Notes under the pieces: generated by a model
The model's input: only the letters and a program-made list of their open reading frames with translations
Told to the model about the DNA's origin: nothing
Databases searched by the model: none
Part shown: positions 6,262-21,330 of the stretch, in pieces
Layout of the letters: every line of letters begins with the position of its first letter
Position numbering within the stretch: the first letter of the stretch is position 1
Made by a program: the position numbers and the translations under genes
Source: a virus
Virus record (IMG/VR): IMGVR_UViG_3300044295_000244
Location: 1 to 24,091 of that record
Direction: 5' to 3' (one strand)
Length of the DNA: 24,091 bases

Positions 6262-6291
6262 ATTATGCCATTGCAATTGGTTGCAGCACAA
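6262..6291 (-). promoter_or_regulatory. Candidate promoter with a palindrome filling its spacer
   Basis: Reading the minus strand, TTGTGC (6291-6286) and CATAAT (6267-6262) are separated by 18 bp. That spacer contains the 14-bp palindrome TGCAACCAATTGCA (6285-6272). It lies between the terminator at 6294-6340 and the gene starting at 6244. The -35 box is weak. A protein bound to the palindrome would block this promoter. Confidence 0.4.
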
Positions 6292-6293
6292 CT

Positions 6294-6340
6294 AAAAAAA
6301 ATCCCCGAACCACCCCAATAGCGGGAAGGGTGATCCGGGG
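6294..6340 (-). terminator. Strong intrinsic terminator closing the ubiquitin-like operon
   Basis: On the minus strand, CCCCGGATCACCC (6340-6328) pairs with GGGGTGGTTCGGGG (6316-6303), with a few G-U or mismatched positions. Eight T residues follow. It begins about 20 bp after the JAB gene stop and clearly separates that operon from the virion genes downstream. Confidence 0.9.
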
Positions 6341-6361
6341 CAAGCCTACTACAGGCTAAAA

Positions 6362-7135
6362 CTACATGTGGTGAGTAAAGAACAAGTTGCGATTGGCCTC
6401 TCGTGCCTCAAGAGACAAGCTACGCTCCCCTTTCGGACGTGCAGTCGTGAACGTGCTGAGGCTCGGCAAAATGCACTCATTCAACTCCTCCAACTCAGAG
6501 AGCATATCATCGCAATCGGTAAACAGCACCTCTGCATCACCACGATGGGCGCGTCCACATTCCAATACAGTACGACTGTTGGCTTTGATTTCACCTTTGG
6601 CGTTCACAACCAACTCAACCGGGTGGTTCATGTGGGCGATGTCCTCAGCACTGAAAAACACCCCCATGTTGACGTGGGAATGAACAGCACCGATGGTTCC
6701 AGGCTGGATATGCCCGTCTTCAGCTTCACAGTGAGCGCCCGTAGCACGCTGAGGGGGGAAGTACATCTCCGTGATTTGGTAAGACCCGTCCTCAAGCTCA
6801 TCACCCTTCAGATAGGCAAGCCACTCTGTCTGGATACTCTGAGCAAAAAAGATCCACTTGCTGAACATTCCATAGGGAATGTACACCTTCGTCTTTTTGG
6901 CAACAGGGCACCCCGTCAAATCTGATGGGCAGCGAAACACGTCATTCCCGGTTTCCTTCTTCGCCACCTGAGCGGCGATCTCAAAAAACGAATCGTCCGG
7001 TTCGTCACTCAACTCCATGTTGTAGGGGAACAAGTCCCCACCACACTCAACGCACTTGCCAGAGTTCTCTCCGACAATAATAATCCCCGCCCTATTACAA
7101 CGGGAATCAATGCAAGCAACATTAGCAGTAGTCAT
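6362..7135 (-). CDS. JAB/JAMM-family metalloprotease with N-terminal zinc ribbon (putative deubiquitinase-like)
   Basis: The 257-residue product carries a complete JAMM zinc-protease signature: Glu104 (in TEWLAYL), then HSH at 152-154, Ser162 and Asp165 (HSHVNMGVFFSAED, the HxHx7SxxD pattern). JAB/JAMM enzymes cleave isopeptide or peptide bonds after the C-terminal glycine of ubiquitin-like proteins. An added N-terminal zinc ribbon is formed by Cys8, Cys13, Cys28 and Cys31. Further cysteines (69, 76) follow before the catalytic domain. ATG 7135 overlaps the stop of the E1-like gene by ATGA, so the two are translationally coupled. It is the last gene before the terminator. The JAB call is secure; the role as a protease for the neighbouring ubiquitin-like protein is inference from context. 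Confidence 0.88.
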   Translation of the reverse strand: MTTANVACIDSRCNRAGIIIVGENSGKCVECGGDLFPYNMELSDEPDDSFFEIAAQVAKKETGNDVFRCPSDLTGCPVAKKTKVYIPYGMFSKWIFFAQSIQTEWLAYLKGDELEDGSYQITEMYFPPQRATGAHCEAEDGHIQPGTIGAVHSHVNMGVFFSAEDIAHMNHPVELVVNAKGEIKANSRTVLECGRAHRGDAEVLFTDCDDMLSELEELNECILPSLSTFTTARPKGERSLSLEAREANRNLFFTHHM

Positions 7136-7785
7136 GCTGCAACCCCTTTCTTCACCATAGAATCAAAAAACTCAACACCTTTCTCGCCAAAACCAATCCG
7201 ATAGGTGCGATCATAAAAAGGCAACCCATGGACAATCGAACCTACAACAACTGCCGCTGATAGAACACACGGCCCAACCCACACAGGAACAGAGGCGTAC
7301 CCAGGATTCTCTTCATCCGGGGTTGCAAAGTCCCCCGGAGAATCGGTAACAGTTCCAATGCTACCCTCTGCCGCAGCCTCAAAATAGGAAATGCCTTTAT
7401 TGGCTGCCCAACCACGAACCATCTTGCGAGACTTCAGGGTGTCAGTGGTAGCAATAATGTGGGAAATCTCCGAACCCAAACCCATCTCATCTGCAATGAA
7501 TGGGTCAAAATCCCCAGCAGAGTACACTTCACAAGAAGGGCGCACCCTCTTAATGAACCGTCTTACGGCATCGGATTTTCTCTTGTTCACCTCACTGAAA
7601 TCCACAGGCAAGCGGTTTAGGTTGTGGGGAGAAATGGTGTCTTTATCGAACAGATACACTGCTTGTGCCCCAGCCAGGGCCAGCATATAGGCAACCCAAG
7701 ACCCCACTCCCCCACACCCCACAACAGCAACGCCATGGACAGTACGCAAATTCAAAGACGCTTGACGATCCATTAAGCCGTCCAT
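7132..7785 (-). CDS. ThiF/E1-like adenylating enzyme
   Basis: The 217-residue product has the Rossmann nucleotide-binding motif GCGGVGSW (23-30), the FDKD segment (Asp47, Asp49), NLNR with Arg58, Lys70, and TTDT..SR (Asp115, Arg120). These are the ATP-binding and adenylation residues of the ThiF/MoeB/E1 family, which activates the C-terminal Gly of a ubiquitin-like protein. Cys173 in VWVGPCVLSA is a candidate thioester cysteine. The CxxC zinc pairs of MoeB are absent. The start at ATG 7785 has a GGAG site 10 bp upstream and overlaps the E2-like gene by 13 bp; the stop overlaps the JAB start. The family call is firm; the partner is inferred from the operon. Confidence 0.9.
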   Translation of the reverse strand: MDGLMDRQASLNLRTVHGVAVVGCGGVGSWVAYMLALAGAQAVYLFDKDTISPHNLNRLPVDFSEVNKRKSDAVRRFIKRVRPSCEVYSAGDFDPFIADEMGLGSEISHIIATTDTLKSRKMVRGWAANKGISYFEAAAEGSIGTVTDSPGDFATPDEENPGYASVPVWVGPCVLSAAVVVGSIVHGLPFYDRTYRIGFGEKGVEFFDSMVKKGVAA

Positions 7786-9146
7786 ACTTCAGTATCTCCT
7801 TCTTGTTCAGTTTCAACTCCAAGAACAGCATCACGCTGATTCTCGTTCAAAATCACCTCCAACAAATTGTTAGGCTCAGCCACCGCATTGGCGGCTGTAC
7901 CAGCAAAGCCTCCAGCAACTACCCCCTGAGTCGCTGTTCCGTTGGTAGGTACAAGGTTAATGGTCCCCATAGTCACTGCCGTAGGGATAGAGGAGACTTC
8001 CTCCGTGGGGGCGGTAGCAGGAGCAGGGGTGAGGGCAGCGGCCAGTGCAGCCAACTCGTCTTTCTTGGCCTGTTCTTCTTTAGCCCTTGTAATGAAGTAC
8101 CCCTGCCAATCTCCCTTAACCAAAAACTTGTACAAATCAGGAGGGATATCCTTCTCAAAGTCTTTTGCCCACTGCTCTGAACCACAAAACAAGGAATTCA
8201 TCTGGACGTACTGACAAGTCCGTTCTACCCCTCTAACAGCCCTCTTAAACTCTTCTGCACTCGTGATTTTGGGAGGGGCATCAGAAACACCCATGCAGCT
8301 AGAGCGATAACTGATGTGAGGCAAAACCCGCCCCAACTCATCCATAAAGCAAGAGGTAGGACTGAAGGTTCCATCCTTACTAACGCAAAACCACACGCCG
8401 TACCGACGAGGTACCCCTAAACCAGTACCACGCACAGAGAAAGCATAATCTTTCCCCTTATAACTACCAGCGAAATCGAAACCACGAAGGCGCACTTCAA
8501 TCACCGTTCGCACACACCACATTTCTTTGCTGGGCTTGAAGAAGTACGGCAACCCAAGTTCCTGAATCCAGTCAGGAGCGGCTAGTTTCCTTTTAGCTTC
8601 CTCAAGAACACCTTTTGCAGTGTCCAACTTGTCTTTGGCTTCACTGATTAAACCACTTGCCGCATCCTTGGCAGCGCGTCGAATGAAAATCCCCTCATCC
8701 TTAGCCTCTTGTCTAAGACGCTCTCGAATCCCGCTCAAAGCCTTCAACTTACCTGTGGAGGCGACGGGAACCATCTTGTACACAGCGTCCCCAATAGCCA
8801 TGTAAGCGGCATCTTGAACAGGACTAATCTGCGTGGAACCTGGGCGTTTTGACATCAGGTACTTCACTTCAATGGAACCCAGAATATCGGCCCACTCTTG
8901 GAACGAGATCCTCCCAACAGTAAGCCGAATCATATGAGGAACATCATAAGCTCCCCACGCCCCACTTTCCCGAAGGATAACCTTTCTCTCAGGGGATAAT
9001 GACGACCTTACGATACTAGTGGACCCGGACGTGCCCAAAAAACTACAACCTTCCACTGAAGGGTAGGAATGTCCTTCGACCTGAAACACCTTGACGCTAA
9101 TCTTAGCGTCTTCGAGGGGTTGTTCTTCTTTCTTCTTGCGTGGCAT
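7773..9146 (-). CDS. Putative E2-like protein of the ubiquitin-like module
   Basis: The 457-residue product starts at ATG 9146, which follows AAAGGAG by 4 bp; an in-frame GTG one codon earlier is too close to that site. Residues 1-130 are of unknown fold. Residues about 133-190 form a charged coiled coil. Residues about 207-345 resemble the prokaryotic E2/UBC fold, with strands VIEVRLRGFDF and YGVWFCVSKDGT, then LPHISYRSSCMG with Pro276-His277 and candidate active-site Cys284, and a helical C-terminal part. This parallels the HPH...CLG active-site segment of phage and plasmid E2-like families. Residues 370-457 are a Pro/Ala/Thr-rich linker and acidic tail. The E2 assignment rests on a short motif and on sitting between a ubiquitin-like and an E1-like gene, so it is moderate. 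Confidence 0.6.
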   Translation of the reverse strand: MPRKKKEEQPLEDAKISVKVFQVEGHSYPSVEGCSFLGTSGSTSIVRSSLSPERKVILRESGAWGAYDVPHMIRLTVGRISFQEWADILGSIEVKYLMSKRPGSTQISPVQDAAYMAIGDAVYKMVPVASTGKLKALSGIRERLRQEAKDEGIFIRRAAKDAASGLISEAKDKLDTAKGVLEEAKRKLAAPDWIQELGLPYFFKPSKEMWCVRTVIEVRLRGFDFAGSYKGKDYAFSVRGTGLGVPRRYGVWFCVSKDGTFSPTSCFMDELGRVLPHISYRSSCMGVSDAPPKITSAEEFKRAVRGVERTCQYVQMNSLFCGSEQWAKDFEKDIPPDLYKFLVKGDWQGYFITRAKEEQAKKDELAALAAALTPAPATAPTEEVSSIPTAVTMGTINLVPTNGTATQGVVAGGFAGTAANAVAEPNNLLEVILNENQRDAVLGVETEQEGDTEVWTA

Positions 9147-9180
9147 CACACTCCTTTGTGATCGAACGTACTTGAATTAA

Positions 9181-9202
9181 TGGGGGGCTGGTTGGCCCCC
9201 CA
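9181..9202 (-). promoter_or_regulatory. GC-rich hairpin between ubiquitin-like and E2-like genes
   Basis: Perfect 8-bp inverted repeat TGGGGGGC / GCCCCCCA with a 6-nt loop, starting 9 bp after the stop of the ubiquitin-like gene. The following sequence is only modestly T-rich (TTAATTC). It could act as a leaky terminator or as an mRNA 3'-end stabiliser, so that the ubiquitin-like protein is made in excess over the enzymes. Confidence 0.6.
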
Positions 9203-9211
9203 CAGGACTAC

Positions 9212-9628
9212 CTACCCACGAGCGTCTTTCGACACAATCTCGATCTTCGAGACTCCGGTGAGAGCCTTGTCAGAATCGGACGTGTCAGCCTTGCGGTCAT
9301 CGACGTACACGCTGAAGCTGCGGATTCCGCTCGCCTTGGCGCGTTCCACGACGAAATCTCCGAGCTTCTTACCGCTGGTGTCATACGTGCCCTTATTGGT
9401 GCCATTCACATACAACAGCACCGAATTGGGGGCGACACTGACCTTCTCAGTAGTGGGTGCAGTGGTGGTAAACACCTCCTTCACCGGAGCGCCGATGGTC
9501 GCGGTTTTCTGTTTGGGGACATCAGCGGTACGCTGGGCCTTCACAGCAGGGACGGCTTTTCGAGGGGCCGCCTTCGCAACAGGCTTCTTAACTGCTTTCT
9601 TCTGGACTGCTTTCTTCTTTGTTGCCAT
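9212..9628 (-). CDS. Putative ubiquitin-like protein with a lysine-rich N-terminal tail
   Basis: The 138-residue product has two parts. Residues 1-60 are Lys/Ala/Pro-rich and disordered-looking (repeated KKAVKK and PRKAVP), similar in composition to histone H1 tails. Residues about 69-134 show a beta-grasp pattern: SVLLYVNG, turn, GTYDTSGKKLGDFVVERAKASG helix region, FSVYVDD, then SKIEIVS. The chain ends KDARG with one terminal glycine, so no processing is needed before activation. PRTRC protein C, a plasmid relative known from ThiF- and JAB-linked operons, also ends in a single Gly. A strong GGAGGAGAA site precedes ATG 9628. It is the first gene of the operon. The ubiquitin-like call combines this pattern with context; a DNA-binding tail protein is the main alternative. 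Confidence 0.65.
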   Translation of the reverse strand: MATKKKAVQKKAVKKPVAKAAPRKAVPAVKAQRTADVPKQKTATIGAPVKEVFTTTAPTTEKVSVAPNSVLLYVNGTNKGTYDTSGKKLGDFVVERAKASGIRSFSVYVDDRKADTSDSDKALTGVSKIEIVSKDARG

Positions 9629-9665: not shown

Positions 9666-9716
9666 AGATTCTCACAATCAGTTACGTTTGTCAAGAAAAA
9701 AGTGCAACTGATTGCA
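9666..9716 (-). promoter_or_regulatory. Sigma-70 promoter of the ubiquitin-like operon with upstream palindrome
   Basis: On the minus strand, TTGACA (9694-9689) is followed after 17 bp by GAATCT (9671-9666). The palindrome TGCAATCAGTTGCA (9716-9703) lies 8 bp upstream of the -35 box. The leader then runs about 30 bp to the ribosome binding site of the gene starting at 9628. The TGA stop of the upstream gene is embedded in TTGACA. Confidence 0.75.
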
Positions 9717-11203: not shown

Positions 11204-11380
11204 TCAACCTTTCCCTGTTGTCTTGATTCTATAAGAATGGTCAGAGCAATGCTTCTGTGTCCGCGTTCCCATGAACTCAATTCCACAAGTCTTACACACC
11301 TTTTTCACACGCCCATCATCCGGCATGACAGGACGACTCTCAACTACTGGGGCATAATAGGGAACAATCTTTGTGCTCAT
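11204..11380 (-). CDS. Very small zinc-binding protein (58 aa)
   Basis: Translating the minus strand from ATG 11380 gives a 58-residue protein starting MSTKIVPYYAPVVESRP and ending IKTTGKG. It contains a zinc-finger-like motif VCKTCGIEFMG ... KHCSDH, two cysteines followed by a Cys/His pair, similar to short phage zinc knuckles. Its ATG overlaps the stop of the RapZ-C-like gene (ATGA) and a GGGAG site lies just upstream, which supports translation. Function unknown. It is the last gene before the promoter at 11144-11194. Confidence 0.7.
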   Translation of the reverse strand: MSTKIVPYYAPVVESRPVMPDDGRVKKVCKTCGIEFMGTRTQKHCSDHSYRIKTTGKG

Positions 11381-11712
11381 ATCTCCCGATGCTCAACCTT
11401 AACTCCAAGCTCGTTACCCAACAAATCGGCAATGAAAACAGAACGGTGAAGCCCCCCAACACAGCCAATGTAGGCAACCTCAACACCGGGGGCAGATACT
11501 TGTTCTTTGACCAAACTAAACAGGCGGTCGAAGTTTCTGGTCTTCCTGATGTACTGCTCAACCTTAAAACTAAAACCATTCAAACTTCGTAGAGTGGGGT
11601 CAGAATGCGGGTTCCTGAACATGGACCTGACATCCACAACCACTACTCCTGGGTATTCAACAGGCACGTTTCCATGCTTGTAGCCAAAACTCACAATCTT
11701 TTGTAACGCCAT
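11377..11712 (-). CDS. RapZ C-terminal-domain-like protein (111 aa)
   Basis: The product matches the C-terminal half of the RNase adapter RapZ: SFGYKHG (8-14), VVDVRSMFRNP (25-35), a central helix, then the signature GCVGGLHRSV (83-92), equivalent to GCTGGxHRSV. In Enterobacteria this domain binds small RNAs GlmY/GlmZ, senses glucosamine-6-phosphate and guides RNase E cleavage. The N-terminal P-loop kinase-like domain of RapZ is absent here, so the phage keeps only the sensor/RNA-binding half. The start at ATG 11712 has AAGGAG. It is followed by overlapping small genes. The domain call is fairly firm; what it does in infection is unknown. Confidence 0.75.
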   Translation of the reverse strand: MALQKIVSFGYKHGNVPVEYPGVVVVDVRSMFRNPHSDPTLRSLNGFSFKVEQYIRKTRNFDRLFSLVKEQVSAPGVEVAYIGCVGGLHRSVFIADLLGNELGVKVEHREI

Positions 11713-14711: not shown

Positions 14712-15383
14712 CTATAGGCGTATCCGCAACACATGAAACAACTCTGCTTTGCCAAAACCAGCCTCAAGACCACGTAAATTACCCAGAGCAGTAACCCCAG
14801 CTATAGAGTACAGATGGTGTTCTCCACGCATCTGCGTCTCATACTTGGATAGAGCCTCCACTTTCCGATCCCAATAATCGGTCACGTTTGCATACAGCCC
14901 GCCCTTACCAGCGTTAGCCTCTGAACCATCACCCCAGTTAGTAGAGGGATACTCATAGGCAGCAATCAAAGTGGGCTGGTGCTTTGCAGCAGACGGCCTT
15001 GTGGCAGCTATGCCAACCTCCCAAGTGTAACGATGATCCTGGTGAGACGAGGGGAGGGGGATCAGTACCTCCGTTGGCTTGAACTGGTCGATGATGTCAT
15101 CAAGCATACCGACAAACTGAGACTGCGGGGCGGTGTAGAGGTTCCCGTCCAAATTGTGGGACAGAACACTATGGGTCTGCACGCCGAGGACCGCCATGGA
15201 GTTTTGAAGTTCATATTCCCTCTCTGCAACCGTTACTACCCCCCTATGCCTAAACTTCACAGAAGAGACGGACATTACTACAACTTGCACCTCTCCCCCA
15301 GCAGCAACGGTACGAGCGATATAACCTCCACAGCCAATCTCTGCATCGTCGGCGTGAGGACTAATAACTAGCAACTTGTTCAT
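14712..15383 (-). CDS. PIG-L/LmbE-family zinc-dependent deacetylase
   Basis: The 223-residue product has the family's metal motifs: SPHADDAEIGCGG at 9-20 (His10, Asp12, Asp13; the usual form is HPDDE) and SSHQDHRY at 112-119 (His114, Asp116, His117). PIG-L/LmbE enzymes remove the acetyl group from N-acetylglucosamine-type amino sugars in glycolipids, mycothiol-type thiols or antibiotics. The length is normal for a single-domain member. ATG 15383 overlaps the glycosyltransferase stop by ATGA. Being the last of four sugar-related genes, it probably trims an amino sugar added by the upstream glycosyltransferases; the real substrate is unknown. Confidence 0.88.
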   Translation of the reverse strand: MNKLLVISPHADDAEIGCGGYIARTVAAGGEVQVVVMSVSSVKFRHRGVVTVAEREYELQNSMAVLGVQTHSVLSHNLDGNLYTAPQSQFVGMLDDIIDQFKPTEVLIPLPSSHQDHRYTWEVGIAATRPSAAKHQPTLIAAYEYPSTNWGDGSEANAGKGGLYANVTDYWDRKVEALSKYETQMRGEHHLYSIAGVTALGNLRGLEAGFGKAELFHVLRIRL

Positions 15384-16405
15384 GTAGTCACCTTGTACCT
15401 TGGCCCAGTCCCCTTGGGGAGACTAGGCAGAGCGTCCATCAATTTCGAGGCGAACGAACTTAGAAGATACTCTTTCCTTATGAAAGGAATTACCTCATTC
15501 TCCAGATAACCAAAAGCCTCATCGTAGTTCTTACGAACATACAAGGCCATACCTGGAAGGTCTTCTAGGGAACAAGTGTACTTGTAGCCTGGAAGCAACT
15601 TCTTTACCCACGGGTAGTCAACGAAAACACAGACAACCCCACTAAGCAAAAGCTCTATGTAGTAAAGACCAAAGCTCTCAAAATGACAAGTTACCATAGC
15701 AAAAGCGTACTTTCTCAACGCCTCTGCGTACTCTTTCCTGTCCAAAATCATGGGCTTGGCCGTATACCCCTCAGTCGTGAAGTCGTTGAGGCGAGACAAG
15801 CTCAGCTTAGTGGACATGAACATGTCCGTATTAGGTTGCCCAACTCCGATAAGCCTGAACATGGGCATCAAACGCTTAGTAGTTTCCTGGTGATCCTCGA
15901 ACCTCTTGTCCTCACAAATACGGGTGATGGGGCAGATCCAGTTGTCCAACCTGTCGGTCTTTTTCTCAAAATGGAAGCAGTCTAGTACTCCGTAAGGAAT
16001 CTGCACGAAATTCTTGTCTAGCTTACGAATGTTGGCGGGATTGAACAGTTCTTTTGCCCTTCCCATCAAATCCCCATAGATAGCAGGAGAAATACAGATC
16101 ATGGCAGTCTCAAACCCAGTCGCCAGGTACCCTGCCATCATAGCTTGAGTGTACGTCTCACAAGACATTGAGAACACGTTTACTAGCTGACCACACTTCC
16201 ACCAACGATTAGCAGCAGACTGAACGTATACCATCTGCTTGGGTTCAAAATTGAGCAGCAGGTCTGGCCCCATCTTGGCGCACTCTTGGTAGGAACCATG
16301 AATCTCTACCTCATGGCCCAGCTTCTTCAACTCCACACTCAAATCCCTGCACATGATGTACAGCGACCCGTGCTCGTTGGGGCTGGTTAAAAGACTAATC
16401 TTCAT
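15380..16405 (-). CDS. GT-B fold glycosyltransferase (GT4-like), first paralogue
   Basis: The 341-residue product from ATG 16405 begins MKISLLTSPNEHG and has an N-terminal Rossmann-like half. Its C-terminal half holds the E-x7-E nucleotide-sugar signature HFESFGLYYIELLLSG (Glu243, Glu251), followed by VFVDYPWVKKLLPG. I chose ATG 16405, with GAGG at good spacing, over upstream TTG/ATG codons inside the previous gene. It resembles the gene at 16395-17390, which has the matching segments ESFGIYYLEL and FLDKPWVRTLLP, so the two are duplicates. Donor and acceptor are not visible. It likely acts in the cytoplasm. Confidence 0.82.
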   Translation of the reverse strand: MKISLLTSPNEHGSLYIMCRDLSVELKKLGHEVEIHGSYQECAKMGPDLLLNFEPKQMVYVQSAANRWWKCGQLVNVFSMSCETYTQAMMAGYLATGFETAMICISPAIYGDLMGRAKELFNPANIRKLDKNFVQIPYGVLDCFHFEKKTDRLDNWICPITRICEDKRFEDHQETTKRLMPMFRLIGVGQPNTDMFMSTKLSLSRLNDFTTEGYTAKPMILDRKEYAEALRKYAFAMVTCHFESFGLYYIELLLSGVVCVFVDYPWVKKLLPGYKYTCSLEDLPGMALYVRKNYDEAFGYLENEVIPFIRKEYLLSSFASKLMDALPSLPKGTGPRYKVTT

Positions 16406-17390
16406 CTTCACCCTCATCAACAACTGAGCCTAGCGTCACGACTTCATCCACAAACTTTTGGAGACGGTAGGTTTGCCGTATGTACGGCACAACAACTTCT
16501 TTTAAATACTGGCGATACTCCTCGTAATTATCGAGAACATGGATGGCACCAGCAGCCAAATCCTCCTTACTGAAGATCAACTTGTCAGCAACGGGCAACA
16601 GGGTTCGTACCCAAGGCTTGTCCAAAAATACACCAACGGCCCCAGTACACATTAGCTCTAAGTAATAGATCCCAAAACTCTCTGACTTAGAGGTGCAAAG
16701 GAACATGCCGCAGTCTTTCACTAAACCACGGTAATCATCCCTGCTGCTTGGCTGGTCAACATACCTGTAGTCTGGAAACTCGGAAGGTGGAGCCGCCTGC
16801 CACAACTTAGGGGAGTAGATGAACATGGAGTCCAGCTTGATCCCATCACGTAGGAGCAGCGCGTTAGTCACTTTTCCAGTTATGGCGTAATGCAGGTCTA
16901 TGTCTTTGTGCTTTCTGTCAATACGATTGAACGGCACAACCCACTTGTACTTGTTCTTTTCCTCGCTCCACTCAAAAGCATCCTCTATTCCATAAAGAAT
17001 GCAATGAACAGACTCCAGTATCTTTCTCAACTTAGTGGCATTCAACCAAGTACGAGCAAACTTAGTAACAGCGTTGTGGGAGTGTCTTGAGTGTACTACC
17101 AACGGAATCCGGGGGGTAACTCTCCCGATAAGACCTAGCTTATCCCCTGCTGTCAACTCTTCAAAGTTTCCACCTAGAACCACTACAAGTTTTTTGTAGT
17201 GCTGAAATCTTTGGGCGGTAACAAGTTTGGGGGTTGCTTCCCAATCAACGTTAACAACTAGGTCCACATGGTCAAGATCACTTTGCCTGTTAGACACAAC
17301 CGCCCCAGGAATGCAGTTGGCTATAGACTTAGCCAAAAAATACATGGACGAGTCTGGATCATTATTTCCAAACCAAACACATACTCTCAC
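16395..17390 (-). CDS. GT-B fold glycosyltransferase (GT4-like), second paralogue
   Basis: The 331-residue product starts MRVCVWFGNNDPDSS at GTG 17390, right after the WbqC-like stop, with GAGGGG 7 bp upstream. A longer reading from a TTG at 17435 would overlap that gene by over 40 bp and adds residues unlike a GT start. It carries the E-x7-E motif at Glu237 and Glu245 (SESFGIYYLELMCTG), typical of retaining GT4-type enzymes using NDP-sugars. It overlaps the start of its paralogue by 11 bp. Role inferred: sequential addition of sugars with the other glycosyltransferase. Confidence 0.82.
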   Translation of the reverse strand: MRVCVWFGNNDPDSSMYFLAKSIANCIPGAVVSNRQSDLDHVDLVVNVDWEATPKLVTAQRFQHYKKLVVVLGGNFEELTAGDKLGLIGRVTPRIPLVVHSRHSHNAVTKFARTWLNATKLRKILESVHCILYGIEDAFEWSEEKNKYKWVVPFNRIDRKHKDIDLHYAITGKVTNALLLRDGIKLDSMFIYSPKLWQAAPPSEFPDYRYVDQPSSRDDYRGLVKDCGMFLCTSKSESFGIYYLELMCTGAVGVFLDKPWVRTLLPVADKLIFSKEDLAAGAIHVLDNYEEYRQYLKEVVVPYIRQTYRLQKFVDEVVTLGSVVDEGEDED

Positions 17391-17392
17391 GC

Positions 17393-18064
17393 CTACACCC
17401 CTCTTAGAACACGCAAAACTTCGGCTTTGGAACATCTTGCAAGCAAATCTAGTATGGAGGTTTGTGCGTCCACACCCCCAACATAGCTAGGCATGATGTA
17501 CTTCTGGCAATCAATTGCAATTCTACGCTCAGCGAATGGCCCAGTCTCAAGATACTTCAAGGGGGCGTCAGCAGCACACACATACGTCTCCCCACCTAAA
17601 GACTTACCAATGTTTGCAAGCCACTCAGAAGCACTTTCTGGACGATGAACAAAAAGCTGCTCCACAGGCAGCACGAGCAACTCTACCCCTAAATAATCCC
17701 TAATTGCGATGGTGGTACGAGTGCAGTACTGACCAAACGTCTCTCCTGGCTTATACTCCAACAAAGAGAGCACTAAATCCAAATTCGGACACCCGCTATA
17801 CACCATCGACACAGTTTTTCTTAAACGGTGGAAAAACCTTTCTGGGTCGGCAAACTGCACCTCGTTGATAGTCTTCCCGAACCTGGCTTTTAGGGGAGTG
17901 GAGATGATGGGGCGATAGTTCTTGGCATTAAGCTGAAACCTCGTGTGCCACCCCTCATTTTTGGCATAGTCTTCACCCAAGAGTACAAGCGTGTCCACAC
18001 TAAGAAACCTTGCCCACAGGTAGATGGGGGAAAACATCTGCGGCTGATGAACGGTGTACCTCAT
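17393..18064 (-). CDS. WbqC-like family protein
   Basis: The 223-residue product begins MRYTVHQPQMFSPIYLWARF and continues DTLVLLGEDYAKNEGWHTRFQL. The HQPQ-P-hydrophobic start, the W-x-R/N-R segment and the C-terminal YIMPSYVGGVDAQTSILDLLARC (P-x-x-ILDLL) are landmarks of WbqC-like proteins, found in O-antigen and other glycan gene clusters. Their chemistry is poorly defined; some act in amino-sugar acylation or modification. The start at ATG 18064 follows AAAGGAG by 4 bp; an in-frame GTG at 18082 lies before that site. It is the first gene of the sugar cluster and directly follows the large terminase. Confidence 0.75.
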   Translation of the reverse strand: MRYTVHQPQMFSPIYLWARFLSVDTLVLLGEDYAKNEGWHTRFQLNAKNYRPIISTPLKARFGKTINEVQFADPERFFHRLRKTVSMVYSGCPNLDLVLSLLEYKPGETFGQYCTRTTIAIRDYLGVELLVLPVEQLFVHRPESASEWLANIGKSLGGETYVCAADAPLKYLETGPFAERRIAIDCQKYIMPSYVGGVDAQTSILDLLARCSKAEVLRVLRGV

Positions 18065-20717: not shown

Positions 20718-20865
20718 GTTCTAGCAGTTGGTGATTCATGGGGGCGTCCACGGGAGACTTTCTAGCCTGATGCAGGATTTCCCTGCATACCACACCCATA
20801 CTGCTGATACCGTGCCCCCTCTTTCTGTTTCCAGGCTGGGGGCAATTCCCAGGCTTCACTGCTGT

Positions 20866-20958
20866 TTAGGCAGCGAACGCAAGCTGCATATCAGGAGCGA
20901 ACAAGTCCGCAACCTTCTTCACAGCCGCTTTAGCCATCACCAGAACATTGTTCTTGGC
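20866..20958 (-). CDS. tmRNA proteolysis-tag reading frame (30 residues)
   Basis: Starting at GCC (20958), the usual alanine resume codon after an A-rich stretch, the frame reads AKNNVLVMAKAAVKKVADLF, then APDMQLAFAA and TAA. The terminal LAFAA resembles the hydrophobic -AA degrons of bacterial tmRNA tags (ALAA, VAA). At 30 residues it is longer than common bacterial tags of about 8-15 residues. The exact resume codon is inferred. Confidence 0.75.
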   Translation of the reverse strand, partial: AKNNVLVMAKAAVKKVADLFAPDMQLAFAA

Positions 20959-21117
20959 GTTTTTGTGTTTACGCTCATTCACCGGGTACTTTCAAGCGTT
21001 AGTTGACTACGAATTTCACGTAATCTCGCCACTCTGTATATATGCACCCGAGTACGGTGGTCGTCTACCGCTGCTCTTGACTTTACCTCACGCCGCAGTC
21101 GAAACCTTTACGCCCCC

Positions 21118-21213
21118 ACCATCATCAACTAAGCCCTTGCAAGGGTCAGTGCTCTGTGTCAAGTTCCATGCCTGGTTCCTGGGCCACTAGCTGGTGACAA
21201 CCTAGTTGATGAA
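21118..21213 (-). other. Intervening segment of the permuted tmRNA precursor
   Basis: This segment joins the tmRNA 3' end to its 5' end. Its ends hold a perfect 10-bp inverted repeat, TCATCAACTA and TAGTTGATGA, which extends the acceptor stem to roughly 20 bp. Such an extended stem is the expected precursor shape for a permuted tmRNA; the segment would be cut out to free the mature ends. Confidence 0.8.
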
Positions 21214-21330
21214 GGTGGAGGCGAGGAGAGTCGAACTCCTGTCCTACGCACGCTACTTCCAGCCTTCAGGTATTTCTACCAACGAACAAATCTCTAATGA
21301 AGTCAATGAAGTGTTCTTGGGATCTCACCG

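Follow-up and report, generated by a model that had tools for sequence, protein, structure and literature searches.

What does a phage do with what appears to be a complete enzyme set for attaching a ubiquitin-like protein to other proteins and removing it again? The question is raised by IMG/VR viral record IMGVR_UViG_3300044295_000244, a stretch of 24,091 bp referred to here as the window, in which an original prediction, made from the letters of the DNA, had read four consecutive minus-strand genes as encoding a ubiquitin-like protein (Ubl), an E2-like protein, an E1-like adenylating enzyme and a JAB/JAMM protease. We computed the gene order, the Ubl fold, the families and active sites of the E1 and JAB proteins, the invariance of a His/Cys pair in the E2-like protein, and the distribution of the gene set. 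A phage-embedded Ubl/E2-like/E1/JAB module was borne out, and sequence comparisons make it likely that it is a self-contained, reversible Ubl-conjugation cassette belonging to a virus-specific family, with replication or host proteins as its probable targets during infection. All four open reading frames were found, with lengths in amino acids (aa):

9212..9628, minus strand: Ubl gene, 138 aa; codon of Gly138 at 9217-9215
7773..9146, minus strand: E2-like gene, 457 aa; a GTG 3 nucleotides (nt) upstream is an alternative start; codon of His277 at 8318-8316 and of Cys284 at 8297-8295
7132..7785, minus strand: E1-like gene, 217 aa; GxGGxG at 7719-7702
6362..7135, minus strand: JAB/JAMM gene, 257 aa; codon of E104 at 6826-6824, of H152 at 6682-6680 and of H154 at 6676-6674

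The 138-aa protein consists of a basic, disordered N-terminal tail (residues 1-66), a beta-grasp core (69-133) and the C-terminus KDARG, and so ends in the predicted glycine. An AlphaFold2 (AF2) model based on 28 sequences gave a confident ubiquitin-type core (pLDDT 83-95) with strands at 69-74 and 77-83, a helix at 89-100, and further strands at 105-109, 112-114 and 128-133. When this model was compared with the PDB using Foldseek, nearly all of the top 50 matches were ubiquitin, ISG15, NEDD8, SUMO or related Ubl folds (probability 0.85-1.00); the E-values were no better than 7e-3, probably because half of the chain is disordered. Model and structural search thus agree on the ubiquitin fold and not on the unrelated fold that had been set as the refutation, and a profile of the Ubl family found SUMO2 as its best match among PDB sequences (E = 0.0018). 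The C-terminus reads K[DE]xRG in clade I, the branch of the E1 tree that holds the window, and mostly AG in clade II. Several Ubls extend beyond the conserved glycine (NS, N, LV, KKAGKSSS), which fits maturation by the JAB protease, since precursors that need trimming would carry such tails. The N-terminal tail in the window (9628-9500, minus strand) is rich in Lys, Ala and Pro, and shorter forms occur in L105, L108, L109 and L161 (the prefix L denotes numbered loci); might it serve as a SUMO-like chain site or bind nucleic acid?

The E1-like and JAB proteins are assigned by family matches as well as by active-site residues, in line with the original prediction. The former has a single ThiF domain (Pfam ThiF, 2.3e-24), and its ATP-site residues are conserved in alignments of its relatives (GxGGxG, D49, N55, R58, K70 and D115); it has neither a CxxC zinc motif nor a separate catalytic-Cys domain. 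It scores far below the equivalog cut-offs of the ThiF and MoeB sulfur-transfer enzymes (44.6 against 275 bits for ThiF, 26.6 against 376.6 bits for MoeB). The JAB protein matches Pfam Prok-JAB above the cut-off (3.4e-6; 27.4 against 25 bits) and has an intact JAMM motif, in which all metal ligands (E104, H152, H154, S162 and D165) are present and invariant among relatives. Zinc-ribbon-like Cys pairs lie at its N-terminus, and the best PDB match of its profile is the deubiquitinase AMSH-LP (AMSH-like; E = 3.6e-4). In three clade I modules, small and mutually similar proteins are encoded 3′ of the JAB gene (L105:6286-6633, L108:6102-6524 and L109:6450-6827), possibly as a fifth component.

No family match was obtained for the 457-aa protein, and neither it nor the Ubl was matched significantly in Pfam, PHROGs, NCBIfam or PADLOC. 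Its AF2 model comprises an N-terminal region, a long coiled coil (133-189), a beta-rich domain (201-256) and a low-confidence C-terminal tail, with the region 190-312 predicted fairly confidently. Across 24 relatives the only invariant residues are H277, C284 and S318, and in the window the motif reads H-x6-CMGVSDAPPKI. A chain of homology connects this protein to known ubiquitin-conjugating enzymes: clade I and clade II E2-like proteins are homologous (hhalign, E = 2e-9); the clade II profile matches L194, L201 and L202, which carry the motif HPNVNDDGMVCLG or PHCN..VCLG (E = 8e-30), as well as HPN types such as HPNISGEGEVCLG (E = 2e-8); and when the HPN-type profile is compared with the PDB, ubiquitin-conjugating enzymes nearly fill the top ranks (UBE2C at 0.0034, UbcH5, Ubc13; E = 0.003-0.03). 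At the HPN..C segment, Pfam UQ_con gives sub-threshold values of 0.004-0.02. The predicted E2 with a candidate active-site cysteine is therefore backed by linked homologies and by the invariance of His and Cys but by no matching structure, and the protein is probably, though not provably, E2-like. Among the loci, L114:3081-4865 encodes a 594-aa E2-E1 fusion with the motif HYHVGCWGD, adjoining a Ubl whose tail runs past the glycine (KAGKKAGKSSS), and L178:3240-4982 has two tandem E2-like genes, both with the motif HYHQ..PDCWG.

The relatives were reached only through aligned JAB and E1 profiles. GenBank phages gave nothing in a direct tblastn with the E1 and E2-like proteins, nor did IMG/VR in single-sequence scans with E1, E2 and JAB, and the first lead was a weak JAB match to gp77 of crAss001 (E = 0.3-0.4). 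An alignment of the window and crAss-type JAB proteins led to 52 IMG/VR loci, and an E1 alignment to 80 further loci, with several contigs common to both sets. Six of the 52 (L105-L110) have E2, E1 and JAB homologues ordered as in the window, together with a Ubl found by tblastn or profile. Of the 80 loci reached through E1, 78 have a same-strand JAB gene no more than 3 kb away and 49 have a Ubl gene. Repetition of the set in six sister contigs, and the pairing of E1 with JAB in 78/80 loci of an E1-seeded scan, make it more than a chance arrangement. Over 100 viral contigs hold an E1-JAB pair of this kind, as a rule together with Ubl and E2. When 84,980 cellular genomes (species) were scanned with the clade I JAB, no relative appeared, and a scan of cellular genomes with the clade II E1 picked up the full module on no more than three small contigs of metagenome-assembled genomes, one of which is as long as an IMG/VR contig. 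As a control, E1-positive cellular loci of the ThiF/MoeB/TcdA type (L240-L250 and L252-L254) had no Ubl, E2 or JAB match.

In the E1 tree, drawn at its midpoint and with several long branches, the window E1 is placed in clade I (99/96), and the phage clades I, II, HPN and Zn are split from the MoeB/ThiF, Cap2, PRTRC and crAss E1s (97/94). The kinship with PRTRC or Bil systems claimed by the original prediction did not hold, as family cut-offs and defining features of both were missed and the E1 clusters with those of other phages. Prokaryotic operons with Ubl, E1, E2 and JAB genes were described by Iyer 2006 (PMC1779556), and their mode of working resembles that of the window module. The PRTRC or type 6d operons among them are plasmid-borne and encode a Ubl, JAB, E1, E2-like and helical protein (PMC1779556). 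Four matching components in separate genes on a mobile replicon are shared, and pCRI9333.03 gave the best E1 match among the first comparators (29%, 7e-11). In contrast, the window E1 scores 19.3 bits on PRTRC_ThiF against a cut-off of 144.75 and lies outside the PRTRC branch, the E-type partner of PRTRC is missing, and the gene order differs; NCBIfam gave no match to PRTRC protein C or B, and the window Ubl and E2 compared with one Deinococcus set were negative in pairwise and profile searches. BilABCD, the ISG15-like anti-phage defence, likewise encodes Ubl, E2, E1 and JAB together. Its Ubl has two domains, its E1 combines an inactive (IAD) and an active (AAD) adenylation domain with a Cys domain, and its E2 has a CEHH motif after the cysteine (PMC11354881), whereas the phage-borne window module has a single Ubl domain with a disordered tail, a 217-aa E1 with one ThiF domain, and an E2-like protein in which His precedes Cys and CEHH is absent. 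Type II CBASS (Cap2/Cap3) shares the E1, E2 and JAB chemistry, and the window E1 matches PADLOC E1-E2 models (1.9e-18); here, however, E1 and E2 are separate, the Ubl is dedicated, Cap2 lies on another branch of the tree, and no cGAS family match occurred among the scanned window ORFs.

Phages also supply parallels. The crAss001 block consists of gp79 (with a Ub-like N-terminus), gp78, JAB gp77, ThiF gp76 and gp75, an order kept in eight other phages including Flavobacterium FpV4; as in the window, a Ub-like protein, a candidate E2 (YMHSH..PC.G.GP), a JAB and a ThiF protein are encoded together. The crAss001 and window JAB proteins are related (hhalign, 1.7e-9), but the order is Ubl-E2-JAB-E1-X and the E1 lies on another branch; because hhalign of the crAss E2 and Ubl against the window families gave no signal, we do not claim common ancestry for these components. 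Cultured crAss-like and Flavobacterium phages carry such Ubl/E2-like/JAB/ThiF/X blocks (L089:2782-8004; L097-L104), annotated mainly as hypothetical, ThiF and metalloprotease, and in crAss-like cr106_1 (L102:3699-4902) the Ub-like core, which ends KKIKSGKF, is separated by an HNH endonuclease gene from what appears to be its C-terminal part. The lambda TAPI/TAPK pair also combines a Ub-like with a JAB protein, but these are tail-assembly proteins and lack E1 and E2. A literature search of partial coverage, so that an earlier mention is possible, returned no description of phage-encoded Ubl/E1/E2/JAB sets, and the crAss-phage literature examined did not mention a Ubl system.

Within the window the module is organized as an operon. 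The E2 and E1 genes overlap by 13 nt and the E1 and JAB genes by 4 nt (ATGA), and the strong terminator foreseen 3′ of JAB was found; the proposed promoter was not, since a sigma-70 scan gave no minus-strand site upstream of Ubl and promoter-like matches did not exceed those in shuffled sequences. By eye, a TTGACA lies near 9692 with a poor -10 element. The hairpin between the Ubl and E2 genes, which the original prediction had not noted, is possibly an attenuator or processing site.

6290..6365, minus strand: intrinsic terminator of the operon, 14-bp stem followed by T8, -32.7 kcal/mol, z = -4.2
9180..9205, minus strand: G+C hairpin between the Ubl and E2 genes, 9-bp stem, no T run, -21.2 kcal/mol, z = -1.8

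The window terminase is 58% identical to that of Stenotrophomonas phage DLP5 and 49-59% identical to those of Vibrio siphophages. Homologues of the genes on either side of the module occur in terminase relatives (g10204, DUF6011, in L047/L048; g11377 in L059/L063/L069/L080; g6020, g5614 and g3695 in L005), which places the module within phage DNA. L005, the nearest sampled terminase relative (70%), has the flanking genes without the module: a small Zn-Cys protein gene is followed directly by the g6020 homologue, whereas in the window the module lies between Zn-Cys genes, judged by eye to be equivalent, and g6020. The module is therefore a cassette that comes and goes, and in the window lineage an accessory one, missing from the closest sampled kin; when 50 terminase relatives were searched, ThiF exceeded the cut-off in none and JAB in two. 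Its G+C content is near the contig average, the Ubl gene excepted, so composition is uninformative. The same phage encodes a second protein-tagging device, a permuted tmRNA (20866-21271, minus strand; Rfam RF04321, 71.9 bits; 20775-21305 by ARAGORN, with a tag ending LAFAA), immediately upstream of the terminase genes and close to tRNA-Ile and tRNA-Arg. Genes of the PIG-L deacetylase and glycosyltransferase-like kinds (14712-17435, minus strand) occur likewise in the DLP5 and Vibrio relatives, and a protein with a RapZ C-terminal domain (11377-11712, minus strand; 5.9e-18) is kept in several terminase relatives.

Gene neighbourhoods bear on what the module might modify. Upstream of Ubl, clade II phages encode a DNA-polymerase processivity factor, the sliding clamp (phrog_223, 5e-9 in L119); its gene ends 35-820 bp before Ubl, on the same strand, in 36/36 loci where the clamp was found, a count that includes eight seeds and some near-duplicate contigs.

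L119:1435-2172 and 35 other loci of clade II: sliding-clamp gene directly upstream of Ubl

This adjacency parallels PCNA modification in eukaryotes. The crAss blocks adjoin primase and uracil-DNA glycosylase (UDG) genes, and in all six contigs of clade I where a terminase (TerL) was detected the module occupies the opposite strand. Location beside virion genes is thus true of the window, where the module sits just before decoration- and fibre-like genes, but is not general. Since most family members are found away from virion operons, and replication genes are frequent neighbours, we favour modification of replisome or host proteins during infection over a part in virion assembly.

We infer the catalysis, E2 chemistry, direction and targets of the module as follows. 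The E1-like protein would adenylate the C-terminal glycine of the Ubl (KDARG), which is directly terminal in the window and would be exposed by JAB trimming in relatives with C-terminal tails. The Ubl would then be handed to the E2-like protein at Cys284, close to His277, either straight from its adenylate or by way of a cysteine in E1, and from there to lysines of target proteins and possibly of its own Lys-rich tail, to be deconjugated by the JAB protease. Targets could be the clamp or replisome in the sister clade II and a host or phage factor in the window phage. A broader proposal, that this large and hitherto unrecognised virus-encoded family of Ubl-conjugation systems modifies phage replisome parts, including the adjacent clamp in clade II, with the window holding a mobile clade I version, strikes us as unlikely, if conceivable.

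Several observations weigh against the cassette as we describe it. The IMG/VR contigs are metagenomic; no E1 cysteine is conserved across clades; and clade I, the window included, has no clamp neighbour, so that a replisome role for the window module is drawn by analogy only. Foldseek of the E2-like model against PDB and BFVD returned noise and no E2 or RWD match, and direct comparison of the window-type E2 with the HPN types is weak (E = 0.005-0.04), for which reasons an E2 fold is not proven. The missing fold match, with the long coiled coil, would suit a SAMP-like system in which E1 itself passes on the Ubl without an E2, with the 457-aa protein serving as scaffold or substrate adaptor and its His and Cys being structural; we think this improbable, as H277 and C284 are two of only three residues held invariant by 24 divergent proteins and sister proteins display HPNxxxxGxVCLG. 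A sulfur carrier of the ThiS/MoaD or CysO-Mec+ type, adenylated by E1 for thiocarboxylation, with JAB releasing the product and the E2-like protein in another role, would account for a ThiF/MoeB-type E1 without a Cys domain and recalls the Ubl-E1-JAB sets of sulfur-assimilation operons (PMC1779556, row 4e). Yet no sulfurtransferase, cysteine synthase or cofactor gene was seen near the window module, MoaD/MoeB-type cellular loci lack E2 and JAB, and a conserved E2-like gene with invariant His/Cys and a tie to HPN-type E2s is left over, making a sulfur carrier very unlikely.

Other alternatives concern the purpose of conjugation. The proximity of the window module to virion-like genes, and the pairing of Ub-like and JAB proteins in lambdoid tail operons (PMC1779556), could indicate that Ubl and JAB mature the phage's own particle, as for TAPI/TAPK; but E1 and E2 are foreign to the lambda systems, L005 keeps the neighbouring virion-like genes without the module, and relatives place it opposite the terminase strand or in replication clusters, so that we judge such a role very improbable. 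The Ubl might instead be a weapon or shield, put on virion proteins of competing phages or on host defence proteins in superinfection exclusion or counter-defence, much as Bil acts on phages. This is possible but rather unlikely: accessory status in the window lineage and the use of Ubl-type conjugation by Bil and CBASS in phage-host conflict (PMC11354881, PMC10097602) speak for it, whereas synteny with clamp or primase/UDG genes in large phages resembles a core early function and no defence genes neighbour the module within the window. We therefore retain the reversible conjugation cassette, with probable replication or host targets, as the likely interpretation.

Bacterial Ubl conjugation has been recognised from host defence, in CBASS and Bil, and from plasmids. 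If viruses do own a full writer and eraser set, ubiquitin-like signalling would be something that phages make use of themselves, and because the broad family includes cultured crAss-like and Flavobacterium phages, one can ask directly by experiment what it is that phages ubiquitylate. The link to the clamp gene offers one concrete candidate and, if replisome modification proves true, the family would provide a prokaryotic-virus counterpart of PCNA ubiquitylation and SUMOylation.

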